From contig DAOVDN010000021.1 in assembly GCA_030669465.1 (NCBI GenBank), positions 1-10,136 on the forward strand: 10,136 nucleotides of DNA, read 5' to 3'. This DNA is from Desulfobacterales bacterium. GTDB taxonomy: Bacteria > Desulfobacterota > Desulfobacteria > Desulfobacterales > ETH-SRB1. The notes below the pieces were generated by a model. That model was given only the letters and a program-made list of their open reading frames with translations, did no database searches and had not been told where the DNA came from. Of the stretch, positions 1,382 to 9,804 are shown piece after piece. The translations under genes were made by a program, and so were the position numbers. Numbering within the stretch: position 1 is the first letter of the stretch; each line of letters opens with the position of its first letter.

Positions 1382-1870
1382 TTATTTTGGTTCCCTGGAC
1401 AGCGCAATAGCGCCGGTCTTTGCGATCTCCTTGATGCCTATTGGTTTCAGAAGGCTCAATATTGCGGACATTTTGCCTTCATCACCAGTTACTTCTATGG
1501 TGTAATGTTCCGGTCCCACGTCAACTACTTTACACCTGAAGATATCGACAATCCTCAGGATTTCGGCACGGTGCTCAGGTTTGGTCCTTACCTTGATAAG
1601 GGCCATCTCCCTCTGAACAAAATCCGTGCCTGTAAGCTCATATACTTTTATTACATTGATGAGCTTGTAAAGCTGCTTCATAATCTGCTCGACAACAGGA
1701 GTGTTCGCCTTGGTGACAAGGGTAATCCTTGATACAAGTGGGTCAGTAGTTTCGGCAACGCAGAGGCTTTCAATATTATAGCCTCTTCCGCTGAACAATC
1801 CCGCAATTCTGGAAAGCACACCGGGCTGATTGTCAACCAGAATCGAAAGTACATGTTTTTCTTCTGTCAT
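1382..1870 (-). CDS. ilvH: Acetolactate synthase small (regulatory) subunit
   Basis: This 162-aa protein is the regulatory subunit of acetohydroxyacid synthase, which activates the large subunit and makes it sensitive to valine. The start ATG at 1870 has AAGGAGG at 1880-1886, 9 nt upstream. The N-terminal ACT domain (about residues 5-80) carries DNQPGVLSRIAGLFSGRGYN. N14 and G17 match the N11 and G14 positions known from E. coli IlvH to affect valine binding, so feedback inhibition is likely retained (inference). The C-terminal domain (about 85-160) follows the family pattern, and the length is normal. It is the last gene of ilvD-ilvB-ilvH, 20 nt after the ilvB stop. No ilvC follows, although it commonly does in such operons; a repeat-filled spacer lies there instead. 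Confidence 0.96.
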   Translation of the reverse strand: MTEEKHVLSILVDNQPGVLSRIAGLFSGRGYNIESLCVAETTDPLVSRITLVTKANTPVVEQIMKQLYKLINVIKVYELTGTDFVQREMALIKVRTKPEHRAEILRIVDIFRCKVVDVGPEHYTIEVTGDEGKMSAILSLLKPIGIKEIAKTGAIALSREPK

Positions 1871-1890: not shown

Positions 1891-3576
1891 CTAAGCTAGA
1901 AGCATATCCGTTATTGCAGCCCCTGCAGGAACCATCGGATAAACAGACTCTTCCTGCTCAACCACAAAATCCATGATCACGGTTTTCGGGCTGGACAGGC
2001 CTTCCGAAAGTACGGATTCAACCTCTTCCGGCTTTGTAGCCCTTAAACCGACTGCTCCGTAAGCCTCTGCCAGTTTTACGAAATCAGGGGAGTGCTCCAT
2101 CTTCGTGCTGGAATAACGCTTTTCGTAAAAAAGCTCCTGCCATTGCCTTACCATACCGAGATACCCGTTGTTCAAAATAACAACTTTTACCGGAAGACGG
2201 TATTGCACCGCTGTCGCCATTTCCTGAATGTTCATCTGAATGCTGCCGTCTCCTGCGATATCTACTACAAGTTGATCAGGACAGGCAACTTGTGCTCCGA
2301 TTGCAGCAGGAAGTCCGAAACCCATAACACCCAGGCCGCCTGAGGTAATAAAATGGTTGCTCCGATTAAAGTGATAATACTGGGCAGCCCACATTTGATG
2401 CTGGCCCACTTCAGTGGTTATAATCGCTTTGCCTTTGGTCAATTCGTAGAGTTTCTCGACAACATATTGCGGCTTGATAATATCTTTCTGTTTATATGCT
2501 AAAGGGTTTGTGCTTTTCCACTGGTCAATCTGATCAAGCCATTTTTTTCTCTTTGTCGCAAGATCGCCTAAGTCCTCCTTGTCCAAAAGCCTGTTAAGGT
2601 CGTCAAGGGTAATTTTACAATCACCTACAATAGGGATAGCAACGGGAATATTCTTGCGTATTGATGTCGGATCAATATCAATATGCACAATCTTTGCATT
2701 GGGAGCAAATGTACCTGTTTTTCCGGTAACACGGTCGTCAAAACGGACTCCGACAGCAACAATAAGATCGCAGGCTCCTGCGCACATGTTGGCTCGATAT
2801 GTGCCATGCATGCCGATCATGCCGAGCCACAAAGGATCTGTGCCCGGAAATACGCCAAGGCCCATTAAGGAGGCTGTCACAGGGATTTGGGTTTTATGTG
2901 CCAGTTCAGTAAGCTCTTTTGAACCAGTTGAAAGAACAACTCCGCCACCCGCAAAAATAAGCGGCTTTTTGGCATTCTTTATAAGTTTTACTGCATTCTG
3001 CAACTGTTTCATATTCGGGTTGTAGGTAGGATTGTATGACTTTAGCTTAATTTTTTCTGGCGCTTTGTAATTTATTGTTGTGTTTGACACATCCTTTGGA
3101 ATATCAATCAGCACGGGTCCGGGACGGCCGGAACCAGCTATAAAAAATGCCTCCTTAACAATTCTTGCGAGATCCTCGGTGCGTTTAACAAGGTAGTTGT
3201 GCTTGGTGCATGGCCTTGTTATTCCGACAATATCCACTTCCTGAAAGGCATCGTTCCCGATGAGCTGTGTTGGAACCTGGCCGGTAAATATAACCAGTGG
3301 AATGGAATCCATATAGGCACATGCAATTCCGGTCACCGTGTTGGTAGCCCCGGGTCCGGATGTTACCAGACATACCCCTACCTTACCGCTGGCCCTTGCA
3401 TAACCGTCAGCAGCATGAACCGCTCCTTGCTCATGGCGGACCAGTATATGCTGTATATCTGTCTTTGCAAGCTCATCGTAAATGTCTATGACGACACCGC
3501 CAGGAAATCCAAAGATCGTGTCCACGCCTTCTTCCTTGAGCACTTCCATCAGGATTTGTGCGCCTGTAAGTTTCAT
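1891..3576 (-). CDS. ilvB: Acetolactate synthase large (catalytic) subunit
   Basis: This 561-aa thiamine-diphosphate enzyme condenses two pyruvates to 2-acetolactate, or pyruvate with 2-oxobutyrate to 2-aceto-2-hydroxybutyrate. It is the first common step of Val, Leu and Ile synthesis. The N-terminal Pyr domain holds FGFPGG and the catalytic-type Glu49 in RHEQGAVHAADGYARASG. The central part is the FAD-binding region. The C-terminal PP domain holds the ThDP/Mg motif from GDG (442-444) to NN (469-470) and RQWQ with Trp479, the position contacted by herbicides in plant enzymes. Length and motifs are normal for AHAS. The start ATG 3574-3576 is preceded by AAAGGA. It lies between ilvD and ilvH in one transcriptional direction. 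Its 140-nt upstream gap to ilvD is filled by a heptamer array. Confidence 0.97.
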   Translation of the reverse strand: MKLTGAQILMEVLKEEGVDTIFGFPGGVVIDIYDELAKTDIQHILVRHEQGAVHAADGYARASGKVGVCLVTSGPGATNTVTGIACAYMDSIPLVIFTGQVPTQLIGNDAFQEVDIVGITRPCTKHNYLVKRTEDLARIVKEAFFIAGSGRPGPVLIDIPKDVSNTTINYKAPEKIKLKSYNPTYNPNMKQLQNAVKLIKNAKKPLIFAGGGVVLSTGSKELTELAHKTQIPVTASLMGLGVFPGTDPLWLGMIGMHGTYRANMCAGACDLIVAVGVRFDDRVTGKTGTFAPNAKIVHIDIDPTSIRKNIPVAIPIVGDCKITLDDLNRLLDKEDLGDLATKRKKWLDQIDQWKSTNPLAYKQKDIIKPQYVVEKLYELTKGKAIITTEVGQHQMWAAQYYHFNRSNHFITSGGLGVMGFGLPAAIGAQVACPDQLVVDIAGDGSIQMNIQEMATAVQYRLPVKVVILNNGYLGMVRQWQELFYEKRYSSTKMEHSPDFVKLAEAYGAVGLRATKPEEVESVLSEGLSSPKTVIMDFVVEQEESVYPMVPAGAAITDMLLA

Positions 3577-3716: not shown

Positions 3717-5387
3717 TTATTTCACGACTGCTCCATCAGCGGCGGATGAAACCATGCGTGAATACCTGGCCATATATCCATGCGTTATCTTCGGTTCCGG
3801 AGGAGACCACTTAGATAATCGATCCATGATTTCTTCTTCAGATACCTTGAGCGTTATCTTTTTGCCTGGAATATCGATTGATATCAGGTCCTCTTCCTGC
3901 ACAATTGCAATAGGTCCTCCCTGCATGGCTTCCGGTGAAATGTGCCCCAGGGATGCGCCTCTTGTGCCTCCTGAAAAACGACCATCTGTAAGAAGAGCAA
4001 CATGGGCATCCAGTTTCATGCCGGCGATTGCCGAAGTCGGAGTCAGCATCTCCCGCATACCAGGACCACCCATCGGCCCTTCGTAGCGGATTACGATAAT
4101 ATCTCCTTTTCTTATATTTCCCTCCATGATGGCACGGGTCGCATCCTCTTCTGACTCAAACACCCTGGCGGGCCCTTCATGACATAGCATTTCATCAAGA
4201 ACCGCAGACTGTTTTACTACACATCCATCCGGGGCAAGGTTGCCGAAGAGCGCAGCAAGACCCCCCTGGTCATGATACGGGTTGTCTACAGATCGTATGA
4301 CATCATTATCGAGTATCTCTTTATCCATTATATTTTCGCTGACGCTTTTGCCTGTCACCGTCATGCAGTCATCATTGATAAGACCCGATCTTGAAAGTTC
4401 CCTGATTACTGCGCTTATACCGCCTGCACGGTTTAAGTCTTCCATGTGATATCTGCCGCCTGGACTTAGTGAGCATAGATTTGGTGTTTTCCTGCTTATT
4501 TCGTTGATCAGGTTAAGGTCAATATCTACGCCCGCCTCCTTTGCTATTGCCGTGAGGTGAAGGACTGTATTTGTTGAGCAGCTTAGCGCCATGTCCACAG
4601 TAAGAGCATTTTTAAAGGCCTTTTCCGTCATTATTTTGCTTGGAGTTATCTGTTTTTCAAAAAGATTGATGATCTCCATTCCTGCTTGTTTGGCCAAACG
4701 GATACGCGAGGCCATAACAGCGGGAATTGTGCCGTTGCCGGGCAAACCCATGCCTATGGCTTCAGTTAAACAGTTCATGGAATTGGCGGTAAACATGCCC
4801 GCACACGATCCGCATGTTGGACAAGCGGCATCTTCAATGGAAGACAGCCTCTCTTCCGGCATCTTTCCTGAAAGAACAGCGCCAACAGATTCAAAGACCG
4901 TGATAAGATCTATTTTTTCAAAGCCCTCTCTTCCAAGATGTTCTCCTGCCAGCATCGGACCTCCGCTTATTATAATGGTGGGGAGATCCAGACGTACTGT
5001 CGCCATCAACATACCGGGAACGATCTTGTCGCAATTTGTTACCATGACCATGGCATCAAATGCATGAGCCGTTGCCATAACCTCGATTGAGTCGGCAATA
5101 AGCTCCCTGCTTGCAAGGGAATATTTCATCCCAACATGATTCATGGCAATACCGTCACAAACCCCGATAGTCCCGAATTCAATCGGAGTGCCGCCCGCCA
5201 TGTAAACTCCGGCCTTTACCGCCTCCACAATTTTATTCAGATGGACATGGCCCGGAATAATGGTGTTTGCCGAATTGGCAATACCTATGAGAGGCCTTTC
5301 CAGCTCGGCATCCGTATATCCCATTGCCTTAAAGAGGCTGCGGTGCGGCGCTCTTTCAATGCCTTTTTTTACAATATCACTTTTCAT
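3717..5387 (-). CDS. ilvD: Dihydroxy-acid dehydratase
   Basis: This 556-aa Fe-S enzyme dehydrates 2,3-dihydroxy-isovalerate and 2,3-dihydroxy-3-methylvalerate to the 2-keto acids of valine and isoleucine. Visible motifs are GVCDGIAM (Cys77, Asp78), [10 protein letters not shown] (Cys119, Asp120, Lys121), [20 protein letters not shown] (Cys192, Cys195) and [10 protein letters not shown], whose Ser472 is the likely catalytic base. The N-terminal motif is [10 protein letters not shown], as in E. coli IlvD. The [2Fe-2S] enzymes have a Cys ligand there (PCN), so a [4Fe-4S]-type, oxygen-sensitive cluster is more likely (inference). The length is normal. The start ATG 5385-5387 has GGAG 9 nt upstream. 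It is the first structural gene of the operon, downstream of the leader attenuator and a palindromic insertion. Confidence 0.96.
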
Positions 5388-5406: not shown

Positions 5407-5531
5407 TATAGATTTTCAGATAATTCATTTCACAAGGCTAGAAGGAGAAATCCGAGTAAGGCGTACTGATTTGTACGTCGTCGAGGATTTCGACTGATAA
5501 CGCAGTGAAATTATTTATCTGGAAATCTATA
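5407..5531. mobile_element. Palindromic MITE-like element between the ilv terminator and ilvD
   Basis: The ends form a 27-bp inverted repeat with three mismatches (5407-5433 against 5505-5531; tatagatttt... and ...aaatctata). Pairing continues inward: gaaatcc (5447-5453) with ggatttc (5485-5491), and a central hairpin cgtac-tgattt-gtacg at 5462-5477, exactly at the midpoint. The 7-bp direct repeat GGTCTCC occurs at 5394-5400 and 5532-5538. It could be a target duplication if the element includes 5401-5406, but that is uncertain. The left copy contains the ilvD Shine-Dalgarno, so insertion would have left a functional site. No protein is encoded. It will be part of the ilv mRNA leader and should fold strongly. 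Confidence 0.65.
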
Positions 5532-5542
5532 GGTCTCCATAA

Positions 5543-5584
5543 AAAAAATCCGTTACCAGTCTCAGGGCTAATAACGGATTTTTT
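5543..5584 (-). terminator. ilv attenuator: intrinsic terminator (segments 3 and 4)
   Basis: A perfect 13-bp inverted repeat, AAAAAATCCGTTA (5543-5555 on +) against TAACGGATTTTTT (5572-5584), has a 16-nt loop. Read on the - strand it ends in TAACGG followed by eight U, so transcription from the ilv promoter would stop before ilvD. The sequence is T-rich on the other side as well, so it could act in both directions. It lies 33 nt after the leader-peptide stop, the normal place for an amino-acid operon attenuator. Confidence 0.88.
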
Positions 5585-5616
5585 ATTTTTTAAAATTTTA
5601 TAAAATTAAGCCATTA

Positions 5617-5850
5617 TTAACCCTGTTCCTCGCAGCAGATAATTATCCCTACTACGAGGACGATAAGAGAGACCTTTGAAAAATGTTCAATTTTGTCCAA
5701 GGTCAAGAAAGGCGAAGATTTTAACCGGAGGAATACATTGAGTATTTTGAGGATTAAAATCTGAGCCTGACGCAGAAATTGGGCAAAAGGGGACGTTTTG
5801 CAAAGGTCTCTAAGATTGACAAGGTTGATAATGGTTAGCGCTCTTCTCAT
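5617..5850 (-). CDS. ilv operon leader peptide gene, interrupted in frame by a MITE
   Basis: The open frame now codes for 77 aa: start ATG 5848-5850, a modest SD (AAGG, 8 nt upstream), stop TAA at 5617. Residues 1-13 include TIINLVNL and residues 63-77 are IVLVVGIIICCEEQG. The 49 codons between come from a 142-bp palindromic element plus its 5-bp duplication. Removing these 147 nt restores a 28-aa peptide in which 13 of residues 7-22 are Ile, Leu or Val, a typical control peptide for an ilv attenuator. Its role is ribosome stalling when charged branched-chain tRNAs are short, not a function of the peptide itself. The element adds further Ile/Leu codons (ILILKILNV, about residues 31-39). It may therefore still work, with altered folding of segment 1 to 2. 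Confidence 0.82.
   Translation of the reverse strand: MRRALTIINLVNLRDLCKTSPFAQFLRQAQILILKILNVFLRLKSSPFLTLDKIEHFSKVSLIVLVVGIIICCEEQG
5669..5810. mobile_element. 142-bp palindromic MITE inside the ilv leader peptide gene
   Basis: The element starts GAGACCTTTG (5669-5678) and ends CAAAGGTCTC (5801-5810). About 26 of the outer 32 positions pair. The palindromy continues inward (gattttaa with ttaaaatc) to a central aatac-attga-gtatt hairpin at 5732-5746, which is the exact midpoint. TAAGA flanks both sides (5664-5668 and 5811-5815), a 5-bp target-site duplication. No transposase is encoded, so it must have been moved in trans. Together with the duplication it adds 147 nt (49 codons) and contains no stop in the leader frame. 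I have the impression that this sequence family is common in Desulfobacterales genomes, but I could not check it. Confidence 0.85.
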
Positions 5851-5871: not shown

Positions 5872-5900
5872 TTTTTAGCAACCTTTAAAAAGATTGTCAA
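5872..5900 (-). promoter_or_regulatory. Promoter of the ilv leader and ilvDBH operon
   Basis: On the - strand a perfect -35 TTGACA (5895-5900) is followed by a 17-nt spacer and TAAAAA (5872-5877, four of six matches to TATAAT). Transcription would begin about 15 nt upstream of the leader-peptide ATG at 5850. This is the only strong sigma70-like site found upstream of the attenuator. Confidence 0.7.
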
Positions 5901-5976: not shown

Positions 5977-6021
5977 ATACATGTCGATTTAGGGCATCCT
6001 TCATTTTATAGTTTACACTTT

Positions 6022-6074
6022 TTGTGGGAGAGGCATCCTGCCTCGAAAATCGTGGCTGAAAGCCACTCCCACAA
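6022..6074. repeat. REP-like three-stem palindromic element
   Basis: An outer stem TTGTGGGAG (6022-6030) pairs with CTCCCACAA (6066-6074) almost end to end. Inside are two small hairpins: aggca-tcc-tgcct (6031-6043) and gtggct-gaa-agccac (6052-6066), whose last base overlaps the outer stem. The GTGGGAG...CTCCCAC design with a GGCTGAAAGCC core resembles REP-type intergenic repeats known from many proteobacteria. It lies in the likely 5' leader of the ferredoxin gene. No coding role is seen. Confidence 0.65.
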
Positions 6075-6205
6075 TAATAATGAAAAACCTGTAAATGGAA
6101 AAGATATTTATTTTCAAAAAGTGTCAACTACTTTCATACGATTATGAAGAATGCCCGATTCAGGTTTCACTTTCTTGCACTTGTATTTTTATTGAGGAGG
6201 TTAAT

Positions 6206-7085: not shown

Positions 7086-7832
7086 TTATTGTTCAGACAA
7101 CCCTTGAATCAGAGCAAGGACATTATGCCCCAATACATTATGATTATACCCCCCTTCCAGAATACCGAAACATCCGCCGTTGCAACGAAGCGCTGCCTTA
7201 CGAACCTTTTGACCGATTTCAAAATAGTCTTCGGTTTTGAGCACCCCTCCCCAATCCTTTTCATGGTTATCAAAACCAGCAGAAATACCGATAATATCCG
7301 CCCTGCAATTCTCCATTTCCCTTGTTATCTCATCCATATAACTCTTTCGGTCATGAGATCCTGAATTGTATATACTAATATAATCTTTGTTTCCCAGGAT
7401 ATCGATGGTACCGTCTCCATAATGCATGTCAATGTCCAGCACGTATGCGCTTTGGATTTGATTCTTTCGTTTCAACGTCTCAATCGCTATGGCCATGTTA
7501 TTGAAATAACAAAAACCCCAGGATGAACCAACAGAAGCATGATGACCTGGGGGTCGGATGAGCCCGAAACATGGTTCGGTCAACCCTTGAATGGCTGCCT
7601 GAATCGCTCCACCGGCAGCAAGAGCGGCGATAGGATAAAGACCTTCCTGTCTCACGCTGAGAATATGGTCTTTAGTATGAACGGAAGCAATGTCTGATTC
7701 AGATGCTGATTCGGCTGCCACAAACTCTACCTCAGACTCAATCACGTCCACAATGGCTTCCATTCTGCCCTGCTCGGCAGCAGGGTCGGACGTATAAACC
7801 TGATAAAAATCTTCGTGAAAAATAACCTTCAT
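7086..7832 (-). CDS. Histone deacetylase / AcuC / acetylpolyamine amidohydrolase family protein
   Basis: This is a 248-aa Zn-dependent deacetylase-family hydrolase. ATG 7830-7832 was chosen because GGGAGG (7838-7843) lies 5 nt before it; a start 21 nt upstream would overlap that site. Family motifs are in order: RPPGHHA with catalytic His97 and His98, WGFCYFNNMAIA, DIDMHYGDG with Zn ligands Asp135 and His137, SAGFD with Asp188, and the transition-state Tyr229 in LEGGYN. All catalytic residues are present, so an active enzyme is likely. It is clearly shorter than AcuC or eukaryotic HDACs (usually above 300 aa), with less sequence before the GHH motif. Substrates in the family include acetyl-lysine proteins and acetylpolyamines; none can be assigned here. 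It appears to be a single-gene unit with its own promoter. Confidence 0.92.
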   Translation of the reverse strand: MKVIFHEDFYQVYTSDPAAEQGRMEAIVDVIESEVEFVAAESASESDIASVHTKDHILSVRQEGLYPIAALAAGGAIQAAIQGLTEPCFGLIRPPGHHASVGSSWGFCYFNNMAIAIETLKRKNQIQSAYVLDIDMHYGDGTIDILGNKDYISIYNSGSHDRKSYMDEITREMENCRADIIGISAGFDNHEKDWGGVLKTEDYFEIGQKVRKAALRCNGGCFGILEGGYNHNVLGHNVLALIQGLSEQ

Positions 7833-7941
7833 GATGTCCTCCCACTTTTTCAATGGATCAGATGTTGCTGCTATCCGATTTCTTCAATTTAGGCCACCAG
7901 ATGCATATGCTTGATATTCTATACGCCATTGTCTCACCATG

Positions 7942-8166: not shown

Positions 8167-9537
8167 ATGAATTTTAGGGGCTCGGAAACAAATATTGACA
8201 AAATGCGAAATGACGCTGTCAGGATCTTTCACGCAGGCCTGAGGGCTGTTGAGCCAAATGCTGCCGTCAAAAAATATTGCAGACTTGAAAACGACAATTT
8301 TTTTATCGGAAGTAAAATTTACGATCTCTCCATGTTTAAAAATCTGTTTGTGATCGGAGCAGGAAAGGCCTCAGCTCCCATGGCTTCAGCCATAGAGGAC
8401 ATTCTTGGCAAAAGAATCACAAGCGGCATCGTCAATGTAAAATATAAACATGTAACCGATCTTGACCGGATCAAACTGATAGAAGCCGGCCACCCTCTTC
8501 CCGACAAAAACGGTCAACGGGGCGCAAGCGCCATCCTCAACCTTGCAAAGAATGCAGGAAAGGACGACCTGTTGTTATGCCTGATTTCAGGGGGAGGATC
8601 GGCCCTTCTTCCGCTTCCTTCTCCAGGCCTCACATTAAAGGAGAAGCAGGATACCATAAAGGAGCTTCTTTCCTGCGGTGCCGCTATCCACGAAATCAAT
8701 ACAATAAGAAAGCATATTTCTATGGTAAAGGGAGGAAGACTTGCAAAGGCAACTCACCCTGCCGCTCTTGCCTCCCTTATACTTTCAGATGTTGTTGGAG
8801 ATGATCTAGACGTTATTGCATCTGGGCCAACTGTACCGGATTCGAGCACTTTTTTCGATTGCATGGAAATTATCAAAAAATACAACCTGGTAAAAAGATT
8901 ACCCGAACCTGTTGTAAGCCATATCAAAGCAGGTGTTTCAGGAAAGGTTCCCGAGACTCCAAAGACCGGCGATCCTGCTTTTAATAAAACATACAATCAG
9001 ATTATAGGAAGCAACATTGAAGCCATGACTGCCGCAAAGCAAAAAGCTGAAAGCCTGGGATACAACACAATTCTTCTTTCCTCCATGATCGAAGGAGATA
9101 CAAGTGATGTCGCTCACGTTCACGGAGCAATCGCCAGAGAGATCATTAAAACCGGTAATCCCCTCCCCTTTCCTGCCTGTATCCTTTCCGGCGGCGAAAC
9201 CACGGTAAGAGTCAAGGGAAAAGGTCTTGGAGGAAGAAATCAGGAATTTGCGCTGGCTGCGGCAATCGATATTGCGGGTAAGGAGAGTGTAGTGGTTCTC
9301 AGCGGCGGCACAGACGGCACAGACGGACCTACTGATGCTGCAGGCGCACTGTCTGACACCAATACCTTAAAAAGAGCAAAAGCTATGGGATTAGATCCAA
9401 ACCATTTCCTTTTAAACAACGATTCATATCATTTTTTTAAAAAACTGGGCGACCTGTTTATCACAGGTCCCACCAACACAAATGTAATGGACCTGCGGAT
9501 AGTGCTTGTAAGACATGATTCTAATTTCGGCCAATAA
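8167..9537 (+). CDS. Glycerate 2-kinase (MOFRL family, GckA/TtuD-like)
   Basis: This 456-aa cytosolic enzyme of the glycerate kinase type II (GckA/TtuD) family phosphorylates D-glycerate with ATP, usually to 2-phosphoglycerate. Some members were named hydroxypyruvate reductase in older annotation. ATG 8167 has AAGGA 8 nt upstream. A longer TTG start at 8110 lacks a site, and ATG 8203 is a possible shorter start. Visible family signatures are GAGKAS (64-69), GHPLPD (108-113), LISGGGSALL (139-148), NTIRKHIS with KGGRLA, LSDVVGDDLDVIASGPT (206-222), SGGTDGTDGPTDAAGA (379-394) and TGPTNTNVMD (433-442), the last two in the MOFRL C-terminal domain. It would connect glycerate or serine breakdown to glycolysis. 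It is a single gene with no operon partner in view. Confidence 0.93.
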   Translation: MNFRGSETNIDKMRNDAVRIFHAGLRAVEPNAAVKKYCRLENDNFFIGSKIYDLSMFKNLFVIGAGKASAPMASAIEDILGKRITSGIVNVKYKHVTDLDRIKLIEAGHPLPDKNGQRGASAILNLAKNAGKDDLLLCLISGGGSALLPLPSPGLTLKEKQDTIKELLSCGAAIHEINTIRKHISMVKGGRLAKATHPAALASLILSDVVGDDLDVIASGPTVPDSSTFFDCMEIIKKYNLVKRLPEPVVSHIKAGVSGKVPETPKTGDPAFNKTYNQIIGSNIEAMTAAKQKAESLGYNTILLSSMIEGDTSDVAHVHGAIAREIIKTGNPLPFPACILSGGETTVRVKGKGLGGRNQEFALAAAIDIAGKESVVVLSGGTDGTDGPTDAAGALSDTNTLKRAKAMGLDPNHFLLNNDSYHFFKKLGDLFITGPTNTNVMDLRIVLVRHDSNFGQ

Positions 9538-9581
9538 CAACTGGGCATACTGTTTGTGAACTATACCTAATCATAGTCAAA

Positions 9582-9609
9582 ATTGATGATTGTCGATTGA
9601 TGATTGTCG
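9582..9609. repeat. Direct tandem repeat, 14 bp x 2
   Basis: ATTGATGATTGTCG occurs twice head to tail (9582-9595 and 9596-9609), followed by a partial ATT. It lies in the spacer after the glycerate kinase gene. Non-coding. Confidence 0.8.
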
Positions 9610-9657
9610 ATTTGTGGAATCGCTTCGCTCTGTCTTTTTTGTTATAAAATTAGTAGG

Positions 9658-9727
9658 CGTTCAGGGTTCACCGTTCAGGGTTACCTTTCTTTCGTTAACC
9701 TTCACTAACCTCTGAACCTCTGAACCT
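9658..9727. repeat. Short-word repeats (CGTTCAGGGTT and CTGAACCT)
   Basis: CGTTCAGGGTT occurs at 9658-9668 and again at 9672-9682. Octamers actaacct, ctgaacct, ctgaacct follow at 9704-9727. The two word types are partly complementary (GTTCAGGGTT against AACCTCTGAAC), so a weak hairpin is possible. They belong to the same word family as 3676-3707. The rest of 9538-9804 shows no gene. Confidence 0.55.
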
Positions 9728-9804
9728 CAATTTTTTGTTTTGTAAGCATTAATTGACTTTAACATAGGATAGTGGCCGAAGTTAGAACCATGCCCTGCTT
9801 ATAG

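Follow-up and report, generated by a model that had tools for sequence, protein, structure and literature searches.

A MITE inserted in frame in the leader peptide of a predicted ilvDBN attenuator in a Desulfobacterales bacterium

The ilvDBN locus and its leader

The DNA analyzed here is a stretch of 10,136 nt from a Desulfobacterales bacterium (hereafter, the window). Its minus strand carries ilvD (3717..5387; dihydroxy-acid dehydratase, domains PF00920 and PF24877), ilvB (1891..3576; acetolactate synthase large subunit, with TPP-enzyme domains and named from its position beside the small subunit) and ilvN (1382..1870; acetolactate synthase small subunit, PF10369 and an ACT domain). Upstream of ilvD-ilvB-ilvN, on the same strand, there is a leader peptide ORF of 77 codons (5850-5617; 77 aa), 49 codons of which come from an inserted element together with its target site duplication.

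When the element is removed together with one TAAGA copy (147 nt), a leader of 28 residues is restored, MRRALTIINLVNLIVLVVGIIICCEEQG. Counted by eye, 13 of residues 7–22 in this peptide are Ile, Leu or Val, in agreement with the first-pass annotation of the sequence. The restored leader has one codon less than the 29-codon leaders of many near relatives (NLIVLVV vs SLIIVLVV). The number of Ile/Leu/Val codons is 14 in the empty form and 30 in the inserted leader, with 16 contributed by the added stretch.

A probable leader promoter, read by eye, occupies 5872..5900 on the minus strand: TTGACA at 5895-5900, a 17 nt spacer and TAAAAA at 5872-5877. Similar hexamers were found at the same place in several relatives. 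The consensus promoter scan did not list this promoter because the scan requires a final T in the second hexamer, which is absent here. The leader of the window had no Rfam 15 match at the gathering score; there were six matches up to an E-value of 5, all far below that score.

The inserted element

The insertion in the leader is a multi-copy MITE of 142 bp (5669..5810), a palindrome with ends GAGACCTTTG and CAAAGGTCTC. It is flanked by a perfect 5 bp target site duplication, TAAGA on the plus strand (copies at 5811..5815 and 5664..5668). The RNA of the element folds at −43.9 kcal/mol as compared with −20.2 kcal/mol (SD 2.9) for shuffled sequences, and none of the 200 shuffles was as good (z −8.06). 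The element is short, repeated, bounded by inverted ends, associated with a target site duplication and devoid of a transposase gene, all of which are characters of a MITE. Within 5669-5810 the consensus scan listed no new promoter on either strand.

A search of 38 genomes of relatives, in which at most 22 candidate places per genome were scored, produced matches to the element in 28 genomes at an E-value of 0.001 or better and none in the other 10. At least 20 matches were seen in 21 of the 28; weak matches, one or two only, were seen in G019, G021 and G022. Copies were compared in a set of 58, all distinct, nearly full-length and with flanks, one of them being that of the window; partial copies and those lying 60 nt or less from the end of a locus were dropped. 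The 60 regions supplying the copies were chosen by hand, mostly from the best-scoring rows of the genome search, and therefore the set leans to copies close to that of the window. The length is 142 nt in 56 of the 58 copies. In 33 copies the same 5-mer adjoins both ends, and in 51 the two 5-mers differ by at most one mismatch. Since the duplications in other copies lie directly outside the same ends, the ends of the element are fixed at 5669 and 5810. Thus, the MITE with a 5 bp duplication and defined ends proposed in the first-pass annotation is borne out; in the alignment of other copies we saw no mismatch with the ends it gave.

The same ends also bound elements of other sizes. The genome G008 has 82 end motifs, against 0 for a reversed control pattern, and both shorter and longer elements with these ends are present there. 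A fixed length of 142 bp was considered and rejected: among the 19 exact facing end pairs <700 bp apart in G008 only nine (hand count) span 142 bp, with the others ranging from 35 to 595 bp. The search for a parent transposon around 30 PF01609 transposase loci yielded no facing end pair, with single ends at two loci, and in two G008 intervals whose genes were listed no transposase was recognized by eye.

Uninterrupted leaders in relatives

Out of 110 ilvD loci, three had no upstream DNA or too little of it and 15 were duplicates; the remaining 92 distinct loci were compared over upstream stretches of 150 to 450 nt. They belong to Desulfobacteraceae and other members of the Deltaproteobacteria and are represented almost entirely by metagenome-assembled genomes. 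Candidatus Desulfaltia is one of the closest; of the genomes searched, G001 is the nearest by shared 31-mers. The element is absent from all 92 stretches. A short uninterrupted Ile/Leu/Val-rich ORF is present in 65 of them, as compared with one in 79 control stretches taken further upstream and 21 in 460 shuffled sequences. The frequency is 44 of 46 among loci whose IlvD is at least 77% identical and 21 of 46 below that level. Such recurrence, along with the position of the ORF ahead of ilvDBN, agrees with the initial assignment of the ORF as an ilv-type attenuator leader.

The empty site itself was found in syntenic DNA. In locus L044 (Candidatus Desulfaltia bathyphila) the leader is uninterrupted, and window positions 5538-5666 align with it at 82% identity, the alignment ending inside the duplication. 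A 77-codon leader shared by relatives that have no empty site, the observation that would speak against an insertion, was not seen in the 92 stretches. We also recognized no other case of the element in an ilv leader in a set of 106 small proteins that contain portions of the query (best query coverage 83%); in the best 25 of the 106 the density of Ile, Leu and Val in the flanks is at most seven of ten residues.

Attenuator anatomy

All parts of the predicted attenuator lie on the minus strand. RNA segment 1 (5819..5834; codons 6–11) can pair with segment 2 (5611..5626) in single-sequence folds; segment 2, which overlaps the leader stop codon, can pair with either segment 1 or segment 3 (5563..5577), the latter supported by duplex shuffles, folds and alignment. 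Segment 4 with the U tract is at 5541-5557, and the intrinsic terminator, made of stem 3:4 and the U tract, extends over 5541..5584 as judged from folds and paired cells. A simple terminator scan did not list it (0 found). An additional hairpin, CCTCGTAGTAGGG ... CTGCTGCGAGG, is situated in the 1:2 loop (5628..5659) and is present in many relatives. In the folds, 1:2, 2:3 and 3:4 are mutually exclusive stems.

A short leader peptide rich in branched-chain residues, mutually exclusive stems and an intrinsic terminator located before branched-chain genes make up the attenuators of ilvGMEDA and ilvBN. The locus described here resembles those of Escherichia coli and Salmonella in its Ile/Leu/Val-rich leader, exclusive stems and terminator ahead of branched-chain genes; it differs in that the operon is ilvDBN of Desulfobacterales relatives, in the hairpin within the 1:2 loop and in the 142 bp MITE in the leader. 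The available text of PMC1183508 names the E. coli and Salmonella attenuators as ribosome-mediated. In the window, a ribosome-mediated transcription attenuator would control ilvD-ilvB-ilvN, with the leader peptide ORF overlapping segments 1 and 2; segment 2 would pair with segment 1 (protector) or segment 3 (antiterminator), and segment 3 with segment 4 (terminator).

The stems were assessed in 60 sequences (59 relatives and the empty form of the window; L029, L057, L059 and L071 were set aside from 64 as too short). The best 2:3 duplex was better than all 50 segment-2 shuffles in 44 sequences and the best 1:2 duplex in 29, leaving 16 and 31, respectively, that did not beat all shuffles; in L061 and L077 the 2:3 duplex was no better than typical shuffles. 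In a fixed alignment of 56 sequences (eight set aside) the proportion of paired cells, compared with that in shuffled columns, was 0.872 vs 0.836 for 2:3, 0.984 vs 0.921 for 3:4 and 0.834 vs 0.758 for the internal hairpin. For 1:2 this alignment showed no covariation beyond column composition (0.742 vs 0.729). The sequence comparisons thus support the predicted terminator and antiterminator stems; the predicted 1:2 stem is supported by single-sequence folds and not by covariation.

A predicted ilvD leader-peptide attenuator with a hairpin inside the 1:2 loop recurs in the Desulfobacterales relatives (many of the loci L011–L113).

The complementarity of segments 1 and 2 across the insertion indicates that both flanks belong to one leader. 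This bears on a possible assembly artefact, in which repeat junctions were misjoined and the true genome has an empty leader. High-copy repeats are classic points of misassembly; still, a chimera of two loci would not yield a perfect 5 bp duplication or flanks that form one leader both by the restored peptide and by 1:2 pairing across the junction, and we regard such an error as very improbable.

Folding with and without the element

The MITE would have transposed, with duplication of 5 bp, into the loop that joins segment 1 to segment 2, where its position corresponds to an unpaired part ahead of the internal hairpin. By coordinates, the gap between the two segments is 192 nt with the element and 45 nt without it; the large increase pointed out by the first-pass annotation is real, while its figures (∼194 and ∼47 nt) are slightly off. 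That annotation had also expected the longer gap to weaken the 1:2 hairpin, which the equilibrium folds do not support. For a transcript ended at segment 2, the probability of 1:2 is 0.913 with the element and 0.919 without it, and the folds lose 15.67 and 15.62 kcal/mol, respectively, when 1:2 is forbidden. No weakening appears at equilibrium; the computed fold of the element closes on itself within the 1:2 loop. In the model, the element thus behaves as an insulated arm: as it is self-complementary, its RNA would fold out and the 1:2, 2:3 and 3:4 alternatives would survive.

In the absence of a ribosome, a transcript ended at segment 3 favours 2:3 (0.997) over 1:2 (0.000) in both leaders, while the full transcript folds with 1:2 and 3:4 in both (0.913/0.999 with the element, 0.919/0.999 without it). 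Since 2:3 wins when only segment 3 has been made, the equilibrium model itself gives no termination without translation; such termination would need 1:2 forming first and persisting. We then represented the ribosome as a mask of about 30 nt with the upstream RNA kept apart. The probability of 2:3 stays at or above 0.94 through stall codon 73 of 77 in the inserted leader and 24 of 28 in the empty one, and then drops in the same register. What the equilibrium model can show is only that masking of segment 2 matters; it is no proof that 1:2 determines the outcome, and the decision itself would have to depend on folding order.

The stability of the arm raises the question of whether ribosomes translate through the leader. 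Were an arm of −43.9 kcal/mol to block or shed them, the operon would be permanently attenuated, and the ribosome-free full transcript, with its 1:2 and 3:4 stems, has the fold that this would require. A ribosome stopped at the arm, however, leaves segment 2 free and 2:3 favoured (at least 0.94, as above); ribosomes melt strong hairpins; and selection should disfavour losing ilvDBN expression where amino acids are not supplied from outside. We consider permanent attenuation unlikely.

Predicted effect on timing

The 49 extra codons delay the ribosome, and so timing may change with the stems kept intact. In the inserted leader the ribosome would have to cross these codons, 16 of them for Ile, Leu or Val, and melt the arm before covering segment 2. 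We explored the delay with a toy Monte Carlo model at four pairs of assumed rates (orders of magnitude) and in two versions. In the pause-synchronised version the ribosome has to melt 1:2 before RNA polymerase moves on from the end of segment 2; readthrough in the fed state was 1.00 at every rate pair for the inserted leader, and for the empty leader it was 0.58, 0.86, 0.18 and 0.08. In the free-running version the polymerase never pauses there, and the values were 0.16, 0.36, 0.06 and 0.01 for the empty leader and 0.23, 0.75, 0.02 and 0.00 for the inserted one, the value of 0.75 belonging to the slow-translation rate pair; here slower Ile/Leu/Val codons raised readthrough in both leaders. On the suggestion of the first-pass annotation that control may still work, the toy model thus gives opposite answers: it predicts that readthrough is constitutive when RNA polymerase pauses at 1:2, and that control is mostly retained when there is no such pause.

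The first of these outcomes would mean that amino acid control is broken, with ilvDBN constitutively on. A ribosome that releases RNA polymerase at 1:2 is ∼70 codons away from segment 2, instead of ∼21, and so the antiterminator would always form; the pause-synchronised version of the model gave complete readthrough at all four rate pairs. A precedent is the trp-type leader, in which, as described in the available text of PMC1183508, paused RNA polymerase is freed by the ribosome melting the I:II hairpin. In our model, however, the pause at the 1:2 hairpin is assumed, segment 1, once free behind the ribosome, might pair with segment 2 again, and the free-running readthrough is low at three of the four rate pairs. 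A constitutive operon appears rather doubtful, although its chance is appreciable.

The reading that we favour, and hold to be somewhat probable, is that of an insertion in the leader of an ilvDBN attenuator that still responds to amino acids, with the fed-state set point moved towards readthrough. Three things are inferred in this reading: translation of the leader, a working attenuation mechanism and the direction of the shift. The same source (PMC1183508, available text) describes synchrony between RNA polymerase and the ribosome as essential for the sensitivity of attenuation, and ties hypersensitivity to this synchrony along with large numbers of regulatory codons and bases.

More tentatively, in a reading more probably wrong than right, the locus could be seen as a natural timing mutant: a self-folding hairpin that spares the stems at equilibrium, triples the number of codons translated before segment 2 is covered and may have re-set the ilv operon to constitutive or hypersensitive control. 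If true, such a mutant separates in nature the structural part of attenuation from the kinetic one. As the leader grows from 28 to 77 codons with the computed worth of 1:2 unchanged, the pair of leaders can be used to test whether pausing or trailing translation sets readthrough.

Origin of the open reading frame

As first noted from the sequence, the insertion keeps the frame of the leader, brings no stop codon and adds the residues ILILKILNV. We asked how often the element would do so by chance. Of the 58 copies, 46 are open in the frame that the leader uses, and the five other frames are open in three of 290 cases; at random orientation and phase the element is thus open in 49 of 348 cases, about 0.14. 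Since one frame is usually open, with no sign of selection for coding, an in-frame, open hit in the leader is roughly a one-in-seven accident: of the six frames of the MITE, the leader would have received the one that is usually open. This openness looks like an accident of the MITE family rather than an adaptation. It is possible that the open, in-frame version was kept because closed ones would harm ilv expression.

Coding selection on the open frame was considered and is not supported: this frame is open in 46 of 56 copies, as compared with 43.0 (SD 3.1) expected from re-placed substitutions, and 111 of 500 trials reach that number. Substitutions in the element are spread evenly over the codon positions (127/129/134).

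The MITE review PMC10969869, in its available text, mentions in-frame fusions as well as the Rickettsia palindromic elements (RPE), for which in-frame insertions have been reported unusually often. The element in the window is similar to RPE in being a palindromic repeat of about 150 bp found in frame in an ORF. Membership in a frame-sparing, RPE-like family was rejected: of the 13 copies that fall in ORFs of 120 aa or longer, as reconstructed mechanically, only one leaves its ORF open, and this copy sits two codons from the ORF start. A further difference from RPE is that the host ORF in the window encodes a regulatory leader peptide.

The available main text of the same review mentions attenuation and leaders nowhere. 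Among the matches listed in the open-licence PMC literature (titles and starts of abstracts), none dealt with a MITE within the leader peptide of an attenuator. In the system of PMC2965389 (available text), too, a mobile element has a bearing on how a cellular gene is attenuated in transcription; there the element supplies the terminator, while in the window the attenuator is the host's own and the element enters the leader peptide. The case thus appears to join a known kind of element with a known kind of switch in an uncommon combination that we did not find described, with a predicted function. It shows that the sensing peptide of a predicted RNA switch can take up a mobile element with no obvious loss of the structure of the switch.

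Other repeats and genes in the window

A second palindromic repeat, of 125 bp (5407..5531; TATAGA...TCTATA), is located between the terminator and the start of ilvD. It is multi-copy and folds at −39.5 kcal/mol; in 12 other copies no clear longer duplication was seen by eye. The distance from the aligned block to ilvD is about 30 nt in L044 and about 150 nt in the window, and thus the repeat is missing from L044. Relatives of this palindrome are also found upstream of ilvD in L035 and L102; in L035 the relative lies between the leader and ilvD and may have entered the same place independently.

A third repeat (5993-6155; 163 bp, ends GGCATCCTTCAT and ATGAAGAATGCC) is situated upstream of the leader promoter. 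An exact 8 bp duplication was seen by eye in two of four other copies having both flanks, and seven of the eight bases agree in the window. A fourth repeat (9514-9795), with inverted ends near CATGATTCTAATTTCGGCC and GGCCGAAGTTAGAACCATG, is partly common to G001.

A single ORF at 157-927 matches both the ATP synthase subunit b and the delta/OSCP family and is thus apparently a b-delta fusion. The region 7086-7853 encodes a histone-deacetylase-family protein (PF00850) and adjoins a gene for a 4Fe-4S ferredoxin-type protein.
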